DNA of 64,000 nucleotides from Candidatus Poribacteria bacterium (GTDB lineage Bacteria > Poribacteria > WGA-4E > WGA-3G): the NCBI GenBank assembly GCA_022821965.1, contig JAJECN010000046.1:1-64000 (forward strand), read 5' to 3'. Position numbers and translations under genes: made by a program. The notes under the pieces were generated by a model. The model was not told the origin of the DNA. It saw only the letters and a program-made list of their open reading frames with translations, and did no database searches. Below are positions 40,225-45,780 of this stretch, piece by piece (the stretch's first letter is position 1; the number at the start of each line of letters is the position of its first letter).

Positions 40225-42696
40225 ATGGAAATCATATTTATGGTTCCACCTTCATTTAACAAGCACTTAGGGCATATCAGCAAAAACATTATCTCGGCGG
40301 CATTCATCTATGGGATGAGCACGCTTTGTGCTATTGCTATGCCACCAAAGGCACGCACCCACTTGCCTTCAAGCTCCATTGCCATGAGCGATGATGCCTT
40401 AGCCACCTTCTTTAACCCGTCCGGACTCGGTGCAGGGCGCGGCTTAAACCTATACTACCTCCGAACATATCAGAGTGATTGGGCAGGCGATGATGCTTTC
40501 TTCCTCGCTGTTCCCGGCGCAGGCTTTGGCATGGAATTCGTTACTGCTGATGCAGATACCGACTTCACACGCTATACACTTTCCGGCGGATACCATTTGG
40601 GAAGCTCACTCTACTGGGGCACGAGTTACAGTTGGATGAATTCTGACAATAAAGGCTACGACAGATTCCGTTCACTCGCTATGGGCTTGATGTACCGGAG
40701 GCGATACATCTCAATTGGCGCAACAGCGCACGATCTCAACCGCCCCAAATTGCTCGGTGAGAGACTCGGCAGAAGTTACGCTGTAGGATTGGCACTTCGT
40801 CCCGGAACATGGCGAACAACACTCTCCATTGACCTACAGAAAACCCAAGGCATTGAAGGCATAGAACTCCACTACGGGTTAGAGGTTCGTCCTATTCGCG
40901 AAGTTATACTCCGTGGGAGCATAAACAGTGATCGGAGTTTCGATGTCCGCTTCGGTATTAACATTGGGAACTGGGGATTCGGCACAGGCAACACCTTCGA
41001 CAGAAATCGAGAAGCGCAGTTCGGTGTCGGCTATTTTCACTTTTCCAACGCGCTTAAAACCAAGCCAGTGCCTCGCCGCCGCATATTCCTTGACCTGTCG
41101 ATGTCCTACCTTAAACAGGTACTTCCGATCGCGAAATGGGATGATGATGTCGCTGGCATTCTCATCCGTATCAACGGGAGTAATTACGGTATGGCGCAAC
41201 TCCAAGAGATGTCAGATGCCATTTTGGACTTCAGAGAATCGGGACGCGTTGTTCTCTGTTATCTCTCCAACTGTTCCACCGGCGACTACATCGTCGCAGC
41301 TACATGCGATGGCATCCTAATCCATCCGTCCGCTGAAGTCCGGTTAATCGGTTTACGCACAGAACGTTCCTTCTACAAAGGCGCATTAGACATGCTCGGT
41401 ATTCGGGCGGACCTTGAACACACCGGCAAGTATAAATCCGCATCAGAGGCATTCACACGGAAGGAGATGTCCGAAGCACACCGCGAGATCCAGAACATTA
41501 TTCTCGACGACCTTTACGAACAACTCGTAGATGCGATCGCAGACGGAAGGGGATGGACACACGAAAACGTCAAGAAACGCATTAACGACGGACCTTACAC
41601 CGCACGTCAAGCCTTCACCACTGAACTCGTTGACCGGATGGTCTATGAAGATGAGTTGTTAGAGGTCGTAGCCGAACTCACCGATCCCAGAACCGATTTG
41701 GTGTCGCTCAACGAATACGCAAAAAACGAACTCTATGCGCAAGATTGGAAAGTCCCACAACCGAAGGTCGCTATCATTGAAGCGAAAGGATTGATGCTAA
41801 CTGGCGATAGTTTTGTGGATCCGTTCCTTGGGACAGAAGTGATGGGAGCGGATACAATCTCAGATGCCGTCAGGAAGGTAAAAGACGACAACTCTATCAA
41901 AGCAGTTGTTCTGCGGATTGACAGCGGTGGTGGACTCGTCGCCGCCGCCGACATTATATGGCGAGAATTGGTACGACTTAGAGAGGTTAAACCGCTCGTC
42001 GTGTCAATGGGGGATGTTGCAGCATCAGGTGGTTACTATATCGCAGCCCCTGCAGACACAATCGTTGCTGAACCGGGAACGATTACGGGTTCTATCGGCG
42101 TTGTTGGTGGTAAGTACAGTTTCAAGGGACTCTATGAAAAATTCGGCATCCATAAAGAGATCCTCAAACGCGGTGAACACGCCGATTTTTATACAGACTA
42201 CGGAGACTATCCACCTGCCGAACAAGCAATCGTCCGGAAACAGATTAAAGAGATTTACGACGATTTCGTCGAAAAAGTGGCACTTGGGCGAACCGATTTG
42301 ACAGTGGAAGACGTAGACAGACTTGGACAGGGACGCATCTGGTCAGGTAGACAAGCAAAAGAAAACGGACTTGTAGACGAGTTAGGCGGTTTCAGCCTCG
42401 CGCTTGCCATCGCACGAGAACGCGCAGGATTGGAAAAAAAGCCAATTGAGATCGTCGAATTTCCTAAAAAGACATGGTTATCACAAATCTTCAACAATAT
42501 CAGGCTTCCACTCACACCGCTACTTCGCGGTAGGTCTGAAAACAAAAGCAGGGAAAACGAGCGTGTGGGAACGGAATCTCGCTTACAGTTCATCGCACGG
42601 TATAGTGGCTTGAGCACCACTGCAAGACTCCTAAACACAATCAGAAAACATAGGCTCTTTCTTCTCATGCCTTATCATATAAGTGTAGGGAATTAA
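40225..42696 (+). CDS. sppA: SppA-type signal peptide peptidase fused to an N-terminal beta-barrel-like domain
   Basis: An 823-residue protein. After a hydrophobic N-terminus (about 21-39), residues 50-275 look like a PorV/FadL-type outer-membrane barrel: SDDALATFFNPSGLGAGRGL, then alternating hydrophobic strands with many Tyr, Gly and Arg. Residues 290-750 are a tandem S49 (67K-type) SppA: HTGKYKSASEAF with the catalytic Lys (K404 by comparison with E. coli K209) and GDVAASGGYYIA with Ser601. GSIGVVGGKYSFKGLYEKFG is also typical. SppA degrades leftover signal peptides in the inner membrane; a barrel partner is unusual. It may head an operon with pcm (46-base gap), the PorV-like gene and the Fn3 protein. 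Confidence 0.85.
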   Translation: MEIIFMVPPSFNKHLGHISKNIISAAFIYGMSTLCAIAMPPKARTHLPSSSIAMSDDALATFFNPSGLGAGRGLNLYYLRTYQSDWAGDDAFFLAVPGAGFGMEFVTADADTDFTRYTLSGGYHLGSSLYWGTSYSWMNSDNKGYDRFRSLAMGLMYRRRYISIGATAHDLNRPKLLGERLGRSYAVGLALRPGTWRTTLSIDLQKTQGIEGIELHYGLEVRPIREVILRGSINSDRSFDVRFGINIGNWGFGTGNTFDRNREAQFGVGYFHFSNALKTKPVPRRRIFLDLSMSYLKQVLPIAKWDDDVAGILIRINGSNYGMAQLQEMSDAILDFRESGRVVLCYLSNCSTGDYIVAATCDGILIHPSAEVRLIGLRTERSFYKGALDMLGIRADLEHTGKYKSASEAFTRKEMSEAHREIQNIILDDLYEQLVDAIADGRGWTHENVKKRINDGPYTARQAFTTELVDRMVYEDELLEVVAELTDPRTDLVSLNEYAKNELYAQDWKVPQPKVAIIEAKGLMLTGDSFVDPFLGTEVMGADTISDAVRKVKDDNSIKAVVLRIDSGGGLVAAADIIWRELVRLREVKPLVVSMGDVAASGGYYIAAPADTIVAEPGTITGSIGVVGGKYSFKGLYEKFGIHKEILKRGEHADFYTDYGDYPPAEQAIVRKQIKEIYDDFVEKVALGRTDLTVEDVDRLGQGRIWSGRQAKENGLVDELGGFSLALAIARERAGLEKKPIEIVEFPKKTWLSQIFNNIRLPLTPLLRGRSENKSRENERVGTESRLQFIARYSGLSTTARLLNTIRKHRLFLLMPYHISVGN

Positions 42697-42742: not shown

Positions 42743-43405
42743 ATGCTATTCGCCAAGAACTACGTAACACTGCGTCGTAAAATGGTGCAAAACCAAATCA
42801 AAGCGCGTGGCATTGACAACCCTGATGTGCTCGCTGTTATGCGAAAGGTAGAGCGACATCTATTCGTAAAACCCGAACACCTCAATGTGGCGTATCAGGA
42901 TGGCGCACTACCGATCGATTGCGACCAAACAATCTCGCAACCGTATATCGTTGCACTGATGACAGACCTGCTGGAACTCACCCCAACTTCAAAAGTTCTT
43001 GAGATTGGAACAGGCTGCGGTTATCAAACAGCGATATTAGCAGAACTTGCGCGGGATGTCTATTCTATTGAGATCATATCGGGGCTTGCCAAAAGCGCGA
43101 AAGCACGGTTGGAGGCACTCAATTATCAAAACATTCATTTCAAGAAAGGGAACGGATATTACGGTTGGCAAGAACACGCGCCTTATGATGCCATGCTTGT
43201 CGCTGCCGCACCTGTGGACATCCCTGAACGGCTCATTCAGCAACTGGAACCGGGTGGCAGGATGGTGATTCCCGTCGGTGGTTCTGACCAAAACCTCCTT
43301 TTAATTCGGAAAGGACTTCAAACTGATGAGAATTCAGCACCATCTCTCGAAACTACCGAGATTATCCCAGTTCGTTTTGTTCCAATGACAGGTGAACTAA
43401 ATTGA
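42743..43405 (+). CDS. pcm: Protein-L-isoaspartate O-methyltransferase
   Basis: A 220-residue SAM-dependent repair enzyme that methylates L-isoaspartyl residues of aged proteins. It shows VLEIGTGCGYQTAILAELA (SAM motif I), PIDCDQTISQPYIVALM (family block before motif I), YSIEI and LEPGGRMVIPVG. Length is standard. It is placed 46 bases after the SppA fusion and 31 bases before the PorV-like gene, suggesting an envelope-stress operon (inference). Confidence 0.95.
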   Translation: MLFAKNYVTLRRKMVQNQIKARGIDNPDVLAVMRKVERHLFVKPEHLNVAYQDGALPIDCDQTISQPYIVALMTDLLELTPTSKVLEIGTGCGYQTAILAELARDVYSIEIISGLAKSAKARLEALNYQNIHFKKGNGYYGWQEHAPYDAMLVAAAPVDIPERLIQQLEPGGRMVIPVGGSDQNLLLIRKGLQTDENSAPSLETTEIIPVRFVPMTGELN

Positions 43406-43436: not shown

Positions 43437-44384
43437 TTGAAACACACATTCCATCTAATTCTACTCATCATGATGCTTTTCCCGACTGCTGCTTTCGCTA
43501 CGTTTAACGATATTGGTGTTGGAGCGAGACCGCTCGGTTTAGGGGGTGCATTCGTCGCGCTCGCCGATGATAGCAATGCAGCGAATTACAACGCCGCAGG
43601 GTTAGGTTATATTGATAAAATCCATCTCGGTGGAACACACGCGCAACGCTTTAATGGACTCATTACTTATAACGCGGTCAGTGGCATTATCCCTTTCGGG
43701 CGAGCAGGTTCGATCGGAGCAAGTCTTGGTGTTTTGGGAGAAGATTCCGAAATCTATCGTGAACAGACGGTGCGTATCTCTTACGGAAATGCACTTTTCA
43801 AACAATTCGCAATCGGTGCAAATCTGAAACTTTTCGGCATCTCCTTTGATGCAGCAAACGAATTTGTTGCCGAGAACCAATATTTTGCCCAGACCTCCAG
43901 CTCAGCCGTTTCGTTAGACGTAGGTGTTATTGCAAAGCCGTTTCAAAGTCTGAGTCTCGGTGCATCGGTAGAGAATTTACTTCCCGCAGATATGAGCATC
44001 TCTGACACTCAAACGGACCCGGTACCGTTGAACATCCGGGCAGGCTTGGCATACAGACTCGAATCTATTGCGGAAATGAGCGCGCAGGGTGCAGCAGTTA
44101 GCAACTTGTTGAAAGGCAGTTTAGTTACCCTTGAGGTTGCATCACGCAATAGTGAAATCCATATCCGTACAGGCGCAGAAGTCTGGTTAAATAAATCCAT
44201 CGCCGTCCGTGGCGGTTATGGCGTGAAAAATGGCAACAGTTCTGCTACAACTCTCAACTTTGGCGGAAGTGTCAAACTCCCCATTAGTAGTACCAAACTC
44301 CAACTTGACTACGGATTTCAACTACTGAGCGGAAACCTTCAAGACAATACAACACAGCGGTTCTCCCTCAATCTGCTATTCTAA
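43437..44384 (+). CDS. PorV/UPF0164-like outer-membrane beta-barrel protein
   Basis: A 315-residue protein with a signal peptide ending near FPTAAFA. The mature N-terminus FNDIGVGARPLGLGGAFVAL followed by ALADDSNAANYNAAGLG is the hallmark of the PorV/PorQ/UPF0164 (FadL-like) group; PorV shuttles cargo in the type IX secretion system. Amphipathic strands run to the end, with the last residues RFSLNLLF ending in Phe as in outer-membrane barrels. Start is TTG 43437 with GAAGGAATAA ahead. It is followed after 16 bases by a protein with a FlgD-like sorting tail, a likely cargo. Confidence 0.82.
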   Translation: MKHTFHLILLIMMLFPTAAFATFNDIGVGARPLGLGGAFVALADDSNAANYNAAGLGYIDKIHLGGTHAQRFNGLITYNAVSGIIPFGRAGSIGASLGVLGEDSEIYREQTVRISYGNALFKQFAIGANLKLFGISFDAANEFVAENQYFAQTSSSAVSLDVGVIAKPFQSLSLGASVENLLPADMSISDTQTDPVPLNIRAGLAYRLESIAEMSAQGAAVSNLLKGSLVTLEVASRNSEIHIRTGAEVWLNKSIAVRGGYGVKNGNSSATTLNFGGSVKLPISSTKLQLDYGFQLLSGNLQDNTTQRFSLNLLF

Positions 44385-44400: not shown

Positions 44401-45780
44401 ATGAAAAACATAGTCATCGCTTTGATAATTATTGGTAGTTTGCTCATCGCCAACAACAACTACGGCGCGGTTACCTCTGTCGGGGAGATCAACGTCGTAG
44501 GTCAAACGAGAGGCGTTGTTCCTGCCAACTCAACGGTGCCACTGATTGTGACACTTTCAATTGATCGGTCGTTGGCAGAACCGGGAGAAGAAATTAAAAC
44601 AATTGAGATCGCAATGCCGTTGGGATTCCTGACCCAATCATCTTACTTCAAAGGCATCTTGCGGGACCGAAATGAAATCCCAGCAAGACCCGTCGTCTCC
44701 GGGGGAAATGTCCTGCGCGTTGAACTGGCAGATGCCATCGTCGACTTCCAGAATTCAATCTATGAAATCATCTTTGAGTGCCGCACACCGAACACGATTA
44801 CCTTAAAAGCAGTGTTCAGAGCACGCTTACGCAATCGTGACGATGCACCTATTGGTGAATTTATCCGAGAAGGGCAGGCGGATAGTAAACTCAACAACGA
44901 TGATTTCAACTTGGAAGTAATTCAGAATGTCCCTCCCGATCCAGTTATAGGTTTTGCTGCTGAAGCCGATGGAACCGGAGAGAACGATGTGACCCTCCGT
45001 TGGCAAAAATCGGGAGACCCGGATGTCAACGGCTATCTCATCTACAGAAATAACGAAAATACTGTTACTGAGGACGATACCATTAATGTCGAAAACCGCT
45101 CCTCAACCACATTTCGTGATGTAAACGTTCCGCCGGGAAGCTACACTTATCAGATTGTCGCTTACAAGACGATTTTCTTGCAATCGGAACGCTCATCCAA
45201 ACAAACAGTGGTGGTATCACCAGACACCGCTGCACCAGAGCCTCCGACAATGCTCAGCATCACCCCTTCAAGTGATGGTATCGAAATTTTCTGGAAGCCA
45301 AGCAGCAGTCGTGATGTAACAACGTACCGAATTACTGAGGGATCTACCATACTTGCAGAAATCAATGAGTCAAAAACAGAATACAAATTTATAGACGACC
45401 GCCCACTCCCTACAGGCAGTTTTATTTATGCTGTCATCGCTATTGACGAGGCAAATAACGAATCCATTCCGTTAGAAAAAAGGCTTCGTATTCTTGATGA
45501 ACCCTATCCAAACCCGTTCACACCGCTCTCTCCAGACGAGGATTTCAATCAAGTTGTCTTCCCCGCTCGCGCGCTTGAAGAAGCTTCGGGTGAATTCACA
45601 GTCCTCATCTTTGACATCGATGGCATGCTTGTCAGGAGCTTAACCGCATCACCCGGTGAAACGGAATTGATTTGGGATGGACGCAACGAAGCTGGCGAAA
45701 TTGTGGAAAGCGGTGTTTATGTTTATCAACTTCAAGTCGGGGAGAGTTTTAAGACAGGTACTCTAATCGCCGCTAAGTAG
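44401..45780 (+). CDS. Secreted fibronectin-type III protein with FlgD-like C-terminal tail
   Basis: A 459-residue protein. A signal peptide (about 1-22) is followed by a beta-rich domain at residues about 28-175 resembling cohesin-like or pilin-type adhesive folds. Two fibronectin type III domains follow (VTLRWQKSGDPDVNGYLIYR; IEIFWKPSSSRDVTTYRI). The C-terminal tail has DEPYPNPFTPLSPDE and a FlgD-like Ig domain (IWDGRNEAGEIVESGVYVYQ). The tail architecture matches the FG-GAP protein (10372-13149) and glycosidase-like protein (33863-36361). It follows the PorV-like gene by 16 bases. Surface-exposed or secreted. Confidence 0.82.
   Translation: MKNIVIALIIIGSLLIANNNYGAVTSVGEINVVGQTRGVVPANSTVPLIVTLSIDRSLAEPGEEIKTIEIAMPLGFLTQSSYFKGILRDRNEIPARPVVSGGNVLRVELADAIVDFQNSIYEIIFECRTPNTITLKAVFRARLRNRDDAPIGEFIREGQADSKLNNDDFNLEVIQNVPPDPVIGFAAEADGTGENDVTLRWQKSGDPDVNGYLIYRNNENTVTEDDTINVENRSSTTFRDVNVPPGSYTYQIVAYKTIFLQSERSSKQTVVVSPDTAAPEPPTMLSITPSSDGIEIFWKPSSSRDVTTYRITEGSTILAEINESKTEYKFIDDRPLPTGSFIYAVIAIDEANNESIPLEKRLRILDEPYPNPFTPLSPDEDFNQVVFPARALEEASGEFTVLIFDIDGMLVRSLTASPGETELIWDGRNEAGEIVESGVYVYQLQVGESFKTGTLIAAK

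Follow-up and report, generated by a model that had tools for sequence, protein, structure and literature searches.

The window, by which we mean the whole stretch of 64,000 nucleotides of Candidatus Poribacteria DNA analysed here, belongs to a genome of 5.69 Mb in 62 contigs. One open reading frame on its forward strand joins a predicted 14-stranded barrel of the FadL/PorV type to an intact two-domain S49 protease in a single polypeptide. The parts of this gene and the three genes that follow it are listed below.

40225–42696, + strand: fused gene, signal peptide plus FadL/PorV-type barrel plus two-domain S49 (SppA) protease; 823 aa in one frame
40225–40338, + strand: probable Sec signal peptide, residues 1–38; read by eye from a positive n-region, a hydrophobic stretch and AIA at 36–38
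40336–40446, + strand: N-terminal hatch of the barrel, residues 38–74, with the FadL-family-like NP motif N64-P65; AF2 model and conservation
40447–41046, + strand: predicted 14-stranded beta barrel, residues 75–274; AF2 model, nearest solved folds FadL and PorV
41047–41079, + strand: barrel–protease linker, residues 275–285; full-length model, pLDDT ~62
41080–42474, + strand: two-domain S49 protease of the SppA 67K type, residues 286–750; family profiles and Foldseek
41434–41436, + strand: Lys404, aligned to the general-base Lys of E. coli SppA; 43/43
42025–42027, + strand: Ser601, aligned to the nucleophile Ser of E. coli SppA; 43/43
42475–42693, + strand: C-terminal tail, mostly of low model confidence, with an LxLMPYxI-type end; full-length model and alignments
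42743–43405, + strand: protein-L-isoaspartate methyltransferase (PCMT) gene; PF01135, 206 bits
43437–44384, + strand: separate PorV/PorQ-family barrel gene; NF033709, 98.2 bits, cut-off 90
44401–45780, + strand: protein with a FlgD_ig/type IX (T9SS) type-A-like C-terminal domain; PF13860, 32.7 bits, and TIGR04183, 21.6 bits, below the cut-off of 23

An earlier note on this DNA had read the gene as an SppA protease fused to a PorV/FadL-like barrel, and this reading is borne out by the open reading frame, the S49 profile match and the FadL-fold model of the barrel. The extent that it gave for the barrel, residues 1–275, is in need of correction: a barrel is present, but it covers approximately residues 38–274, because residues 1–38 resemble a signal peptide. 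The AF2 model of the full-length protein (43 sequences; pLDDT 84.3, pTM 0.73) comprises the barrel and, after a linker, both S49 domains and a tail without structure. The linker is poorly placed (pLDDT ~62), and the pose of barrel and protease relative to each other is uncertain in this model. The LxLMPYxIxI-like end of the tail (42640–42693 of the window) is kept across phyla in fused and unfused SppA alike and was thus discarded as a motif specific to the fusion. The title of a B. subtilis SppA structure (4kwb) refers to C-termini bound in the active sites, to which the conserved tail may be compared.

Residues 38–300 were modelled separately on the basis of 52 aligned sequences, giving two short helices followed by 14 strands at a mean pLDDT of 90.5 and a pTM of 0.82. 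A Foldseek search of the PDB with this model returned TbuX, FadL and other barrels as best matches (best E 7.8e-06), and the type IX secretion protein PorV (8gl6_F) at 4.2e-05. When the candidates supplied by Foldseek were re-aligned with VIA-align, the top 26 rows (Z ≥19.2) went to channels of the FadL type and to chains from BAM and type IX complexes, the first other barrel following at Z 17.2. Among them, FadL (2r88) aligned over 231 residues with Z 24.6 and an rmsd of 2.7, and PorV (8gl6_F) over 242 residues with Z 24.2 and an rmsd of 3.0. Structure prediction of residues 40–280 had been proposed as a check on the barrel, with a soluble fold or one belonging to S49 itself counting against it; given the pLDDT of 90.5 and the Z scores of 24.6 and 24.2, the domain is predicted to be a 14-stranded FadL/PorV-type barrel, neither soluble nor S49-like. 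The model has the 14 strands, the N-terminal hatch and the NP motif that mark the FadL fold, N64 and P65 being identical in 43/43 fused sequences at the position of that motif. The motif presumably plays a role in the FadL family, as is also suggested by the titles of entries for FadL N33A, P34A and delta NPA.

At the sequence level, the barrel matches curated models weakly. Searched against NCBIfam, the first 282 residues gave no match, and Pfam returned PagL alone for the window barrel (E 0.083, below cut-off), so that no curated family in either collection is matched above cut-off by this barrel. The PorV/PorQ model NF033709 did not match it either, and at E ≤1 reached only 5 of the 52 fused barrels, the best of them at 0.0036; the equivalog models for type IX PorV and PorQ and the BamG model NF053685 found no match among the same 52. 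The families matched by most relatives are outer-membrane barrels, namely PorP/SprF, TraF_2, PagL and PorV_fam, with best E values from 8.1e-07 to 0.021, the lower value being that of the best single member against PorP_SprF. A few unrelated families, each matched by a single member at E 0.01 or worse, were disregarded. In a comparison of alignments, hhalign relates the fused barrel to the family of the PorV-like neighbour with 99.1% probability over 191 columns. On these profile comparisons the fused barrel is classed as a distant relative of the PorV/PorQ family (NF033709), not as a member.

The protease part is readily assigned. TIGR00705 (SppA_67K) scores 337.5 bits against a cut-off of 311.45 over residues 292–760, covering both S49 domains, and PF01343 matches two stretches in the C-terminal part. 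In a phmmer search of the PDB, residues 300–759 align to E. coli SppA (3bez, E 4.2e-58), and Foldseek with the full-length model likewise ranks E. coli SppA first (3bez_D, E 8.7e-41, TMt 0.82). The active-site Lys and Ser of 3bez, which we take to be K209 and S409 in native numbering, are matched in the alignment by Lys404 and Ser601; the latter two are kept in all 43 fused sequences from several phyla, in agreement with the earlier statement that both residues are retained. The protease thus appears to be an intact two-domain S49 enzyme with its dyad, putatively active as a peptidase and putatively tetrameric. By profile and model, the fusion is filed under the S49/SppA proteases and not as an inner-membrane SppA, because the barrel stands where E. 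coli SppA has its N-terminal transmembrane helix.

The orientation of the protease follows from the strand count. With 14 strands, an even number, both ends of the strand set lie on one side of the membrane, and as both are periplasmic in FadL-type barrels the protease would point into the periplasm rather than towards the cell surface. If the barrel model is given a periplasmic start, its seven outer loops sum to 45 residues and its inner turns to 20; outer loops that exceed inner turns are the usual pattern of outer-membrane barrels. The last strand carries G-x-x-aromatic in 39/52 fused barrels, which we take to be part of the BAM beta-signal. Related PorV-type barrels carry C-terminal TPR, secretin or ComEA-like helix-hairpin-helix domains, the periplasm being the expected location of ComEA-type domains and of the N-domains of secretins. 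In BamG, a FadL-family protein of Bacteroidota, the C-tail contacts BamD, a periplasmic or partly periplasmic subunit (available text of PMC12611786). From the model and these analogies, we infer that the protease is periplasmic and held on an outer-membrane barrel anchor.

The fused gene is widespread. A full-length protein search matched 60/60 genomes, the window's own among them, and barrel profile A1 matched 83/84 Poribacteria genomes, including 55/55 good ones, every strong match lying within a frame of 683–914 aa; the sole genome without a match is 73% complete. Because 83/84 genomes of the phylum have the barrel within such a frame, the fusion is real, neither a chance product nor a chimaera. 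A profile scan of contigs kept 78 loci. Three of these (L118, L121 and L126; truncated or split) were left out of the structure alignments, as were six in which the match lay in the protease only and no barrel was aligned (L125, L127, L128, L130, L132 and L133); of the remaining 69, 51 entered the barrel alignment and 42 the full-length alignment, the rest being mostly near-duplicates. Outside Poribacteria, complete fused frames of 779–946 aa occur in Zixibacteria, Cloacimonadota, Calditrichaeota, Sericytochromatia and further bacteria.

Profile A5 was used to gauge frequency in these groups. In the Zixibacteria group (G093) 128/132 genomes matched at E ≤0.001, and a hand count among the matches listed, which extend to E ~7e-12, puts at least 101/132 in frames of ≥700 aa, all with E ≤4e-21. 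At E ≤1e-12, the Calditrichota group (G090) gave 35/39 genomes (34/39 in frames of ≥700 aa, hand count), the Cloacimonadota group (G089) 39/60 (36/60 in frames of ≥680 aa, hand count) and the phylum containing Sericytochromatia (G098) 17/79 (16/79 in frames of ≥750 aa), while the same query and threshold found 0/99 in an Acidobacteriota-type group (G101, Bryobacterales). The phylum of G099 comprised 2 genomes only. As frame length alone is no proof of fusion, 20 loci drawn from the Zixibacteria, Calditrichota and Cloacimonadota lists were fetched, and barrel and S49 domains were found in one frame in 20/20, one of them an open-ended frame of 577 aa (L172). A search for the same domain pair, suggested as a further check, therefore shows it to recur across Poribacteria and in Zixibacteria, Calditrichota, Cloacimonadota and the Sericytochromatia-containing phylum.

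Several related architectures were encountered in the same searches. Some genomes of the Zixibacteria group have a stand-alone barrel of ~280–320 aa close to the fused barrel; two such barrels of 286–300 aa (L150 and L156) come from genomes that also have a fused copy. In a 778-aa protein from the same group (L148:472-2805, − strand), the N-terminus resembles a PorV-type barrel (PorV_fam, 57.9 bits, below cut-off) and the C-terminus is a secretin (PF00263, 159.8 bits). In L145, L146 and L147, PorV/FadL-type barrels are followed by TPR repeats in proteins of ~620 aa. In L153:1233-2324 (+ strand) and L136:1063-2595 (− strand), ComEA-like helix-hairpin-helix repeats come after a PorV/FadL-like barrel stretch, and these two may be receptors for DNA uptake tethered to the outer membrane. 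A Poribacteria protein (L149:1578-4001, + strand) has a PorV-family barrel (93.7 bits) and a C-terminal part that matches antiphage_ProA weakly, far below cut-off.

The window's genome holds two further S49 genes without a barrel, one of 295 aa with a strongly hydrophobic N-terminus (anchor) and one of 622 aa with a signal-peptide-like start. The earlier note had suspected a role beyond signal-peptide clean-up; this much is reasonable, since two other S49 genes, one with a hydrophobic N-terminal anchor, are at hand in the genome. In the S49 tree, Poribacteria paralogues of the 600-aa kind group apart from the fused genes. Across its 53 sequences (41 fused, 12 unfused), fused and unfused proteins are interleaved with 5 label changes, only 1 of them required by the starred branches. 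The AU test does not reject a grouping of all fused proteins in one clade (p-AU 0.165). The tree is thus compatible with one fusion event or with several.

Gene context varies. In the window, the fusion is followed on the same strand by the PCMT gene, the PorV-family barrel and the FlgD_ig/T9SS-like protein, the separate PorV-like gene at 43437 being present as noted before (NF033709, 98.2 bits). Among 20 divergent Poribacteria loci from other families (L036–L055), some on short stretches, PCMT neighbours the fusion in 13 and PorV in 2. A conserved operon with PorV and secretion genes was accordingly rejected beyond near relatives. Elsewhere the neighbours include two downstream M16 peptidase genes in Zixibacteria (L113), Rho (L119), UvrC with a release-factor-like gene (L116) and an Alginate_exp barrel (L122), and, at further loci, GARS, AMMECR1 and enolase among others; a scan of 20 neighbour proteins showed no defence genes. 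As this context is not conserved between phyla, any substrate of the fusion is a guess. A divergent SprA-like translocon protein is detected in 80/81 Poribacteria genomes at E ≤0.001 and above the family cut-off in 1/81, so a link of the fusion to type IX secretion may exist. The one protein above cut-off scores 508 bits (G058:C30:112-4146). In the window's genome PorV_fam matches 17 stretches, and a divergent SprA-like frame of 2250 aa (G000:C42:63305-66790) shares its contig with a PorV_fam gene at 103086–104069.

Taken together, the data are best explained by an outer-membrane-tethered SppA, its protease facing the periplasm and serving peptide and protein clean-up at the outer membrane and in the periplasm, a reading that we consider probable. 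The protein would be exported by Sec and its barrel inserted into the outer membrane with both ends periplasmic, so that the protease hangs from the inner face of that membrane, presumably as a tetramer like E. coli SppA in which each subunit's barrel replaces the inner-membrane helix. In the periplasm it would break down peptides, as well as those parts of outer-membrane, secreted or incoming polypeptides that are unfolded or have stalled. With its very short loops, the barrel would act mainly as an anchor and positioning device rather than as a transporter, and the two S49 relatives without a barrel could serve the inner membrane and periplasm. The PCMT neighbour in Poribacteria and the M16 genes at L113 are counted as clean-up context. 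In the available text of PMC9360617, E. coli SppA is presented as a tetramer with an inner-membrane anchor, which breaks down signal peptides after their release. According to the available part of PMC7568657, B. subtilis SppA assembles into octamers in which neighbours share active sites, is inhibited by SppI and confers lantibiotic resistance, sppA mutants having no secretion defect; a self-cleaved C-terminal propeptide is discussed. In F. columnare, cells that have lost a helix-anchored SppA no longer glide, and their vesicle output is increased 3.8-fold (available part of PMC13236525). These roles in B. subtilis and F. columnare make outer-membrane homeostasis or peptide defence plausible for the tethered form, the choice between them being ours.

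Peptide defence may be taken further, the tethered protease being a shield that destroys antimicrobial peptides as they cross the outer membrane. The lantibiotic resistance of B. subtilis, with no secretion defect in its mutants, speaks for such a function, and a protease just beneath the outer membrane would be the first to meet incoming peptides; yet B. subtilis SppA functions without a barrel, the gene is kept across several phyla and no defence genes appear among the 20 neighbour proteins, and we regard the shield as unlikely. The suggestion of the earlier note that the protease is associated with surface secretion fares no better. It would have the PorV-like barrel receive type IX-type cargo and the S49 domain trim it during export, and can draw on the hhalign homology to the PorV family, the likeness in fold to type IX PorV, the PorV-like and FlgD_ig/T9SS-like genes downstream in the window and the SprA-like protein in 80/81 genomes. 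The FadL-type topology, however, puts the protease in the periplasm, the PorV neighbour was not found in 18/20 divergent loci and the context in other phyla is unrelated. Moreover, the type IX PorV/PorQ equivalogs find no match, PorV_fam reaches only 5/52 barrels (best E 0.0036) and the SprA matches lie mostly below the family cut-off (1/81 above). This type IX reading is quite unlikely in our view, and the association with surface secretion is not upheld.

The closest solved folds, FadL and the toluene and hydrocarbon channels among them, invite the idea that the barrel is a true channel for FadL-like uptake of hydrophobic peptides or lipids, feeding or draining the protease chamber. We hold this to be very unlikely in view of the seven very short outer loops, 45 residues in all, the FadL-like N-terminal hatch and the structural nature of the conserved features that were found (NP motif). 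An ordinary signal-peptide peptidase whose barrel-like N-terminus lies outside the outer membrane would account for the score of the protease part above the SppA_67K cut-off, but hardly for a high-confidence 14-strand barrel with a FadL-like hatch, and the genome already has two other S49 genes; it is the least credible of the readings, and extremely improbable. Conversely, the tethered SppA could be extended to an outer-membrane quality-control station, in which the barrel docks laterally on BamA, as BamG does in Bacteroidota, or on a type IX translocon, and the bowl of the SppA tetramer rests against the inner face of the membrane; the membrane would thus close off a chamber in which outer-membrane or secreted proteins that have stalled are destroyed. 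On a wider view, FadL/PorV barrels in these phyla would be general plug-in anchors for machines of the periplasm, be it a protease, a TPR scaffold, a secretin or a DNA-binding domain. This extended picture is rather doubtful.

SppA has been described as an inner-membrane remover of spent signal peptides; throughout Poribacteria, and in many genomes of several other phyla, there is in addition a form of it joined to an outer-membrane-type barrel. Annotation pipelines would probably label the fusion "signal peptide peptidase SppA", because its protease part passes the family cut-off. No description of a barrel–SppA fusion was found in a literature search that left subscription journals and preprints largely outside; both parts are known, whereas the combination, its spread and the implied location were not found there, and others may have seen the architecture in domain databases. 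If confirmed, the fusion would be an integral outer-membrane serine protease facing the periplasm, it would become testable by location whether SppA serves signal-peptide removal, quality control or peptide resistance, and FadL/PorV barrels would be reusable anchors for periplasmic domains. The recurrence of the fusion in several little-studied phyla suggests that some of the protein clean-up of the cell takes place at the outer membrane.

Among known systems, E. coli SppA (protease IV; S49, 67K; 3bez, 3bf0) shares with the fusion its tandem S49 domains, Lys-Ser dyad and fold (TMt 0.82–0.84, 30% identity), but an N-terminal helix holds it in the inner membrane (available text of PMC9360617) where the fusion has a predicted 14-stranded barrel. 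The SppA proteins of B. subtilis (36K; 3rst, 4kwb) and Flavobacterium columnare likewise share the S49 fold, and differ in having an N-terminal transmembrane helix and no barrel, as far as the available parts of PMC7568657 and PMC13236525 go. BamG of the Bacteroidota BAM resembles the fused barrel as a FadL-family protein that is part of an outer-membrane machine and is not known as a transporter (available text of PMC12611786). The fused barrel aligns with 9n2d_B at Z 22.3, an entry titled as the F. johnsoniae BAM complex, of which chain B is probably BamG. Unlike the fusion, BamG has no protease, and its model is without a match among the 52 fused barrels. The FadL, TodX and TbuX channels have the 14 strands, hatch and NP motif of the fused barrel, with Z 20.8–24.6 over 226–236 of 263 model residues; their 360–444 residues compare with 263, the loops of the fusion are much shorter, identity is 12–17% and the fusion has a C-terminal protease. 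PorV/PorQ (NF033709, including type IX PorV) is close to the fused barrel in fold (Z 24.2 to 8gl6_F) and in the hhalign comparison with the neighbour's family (99.1%), whereas the window barrel falls below the family model and the fusion carries an S49 protease.
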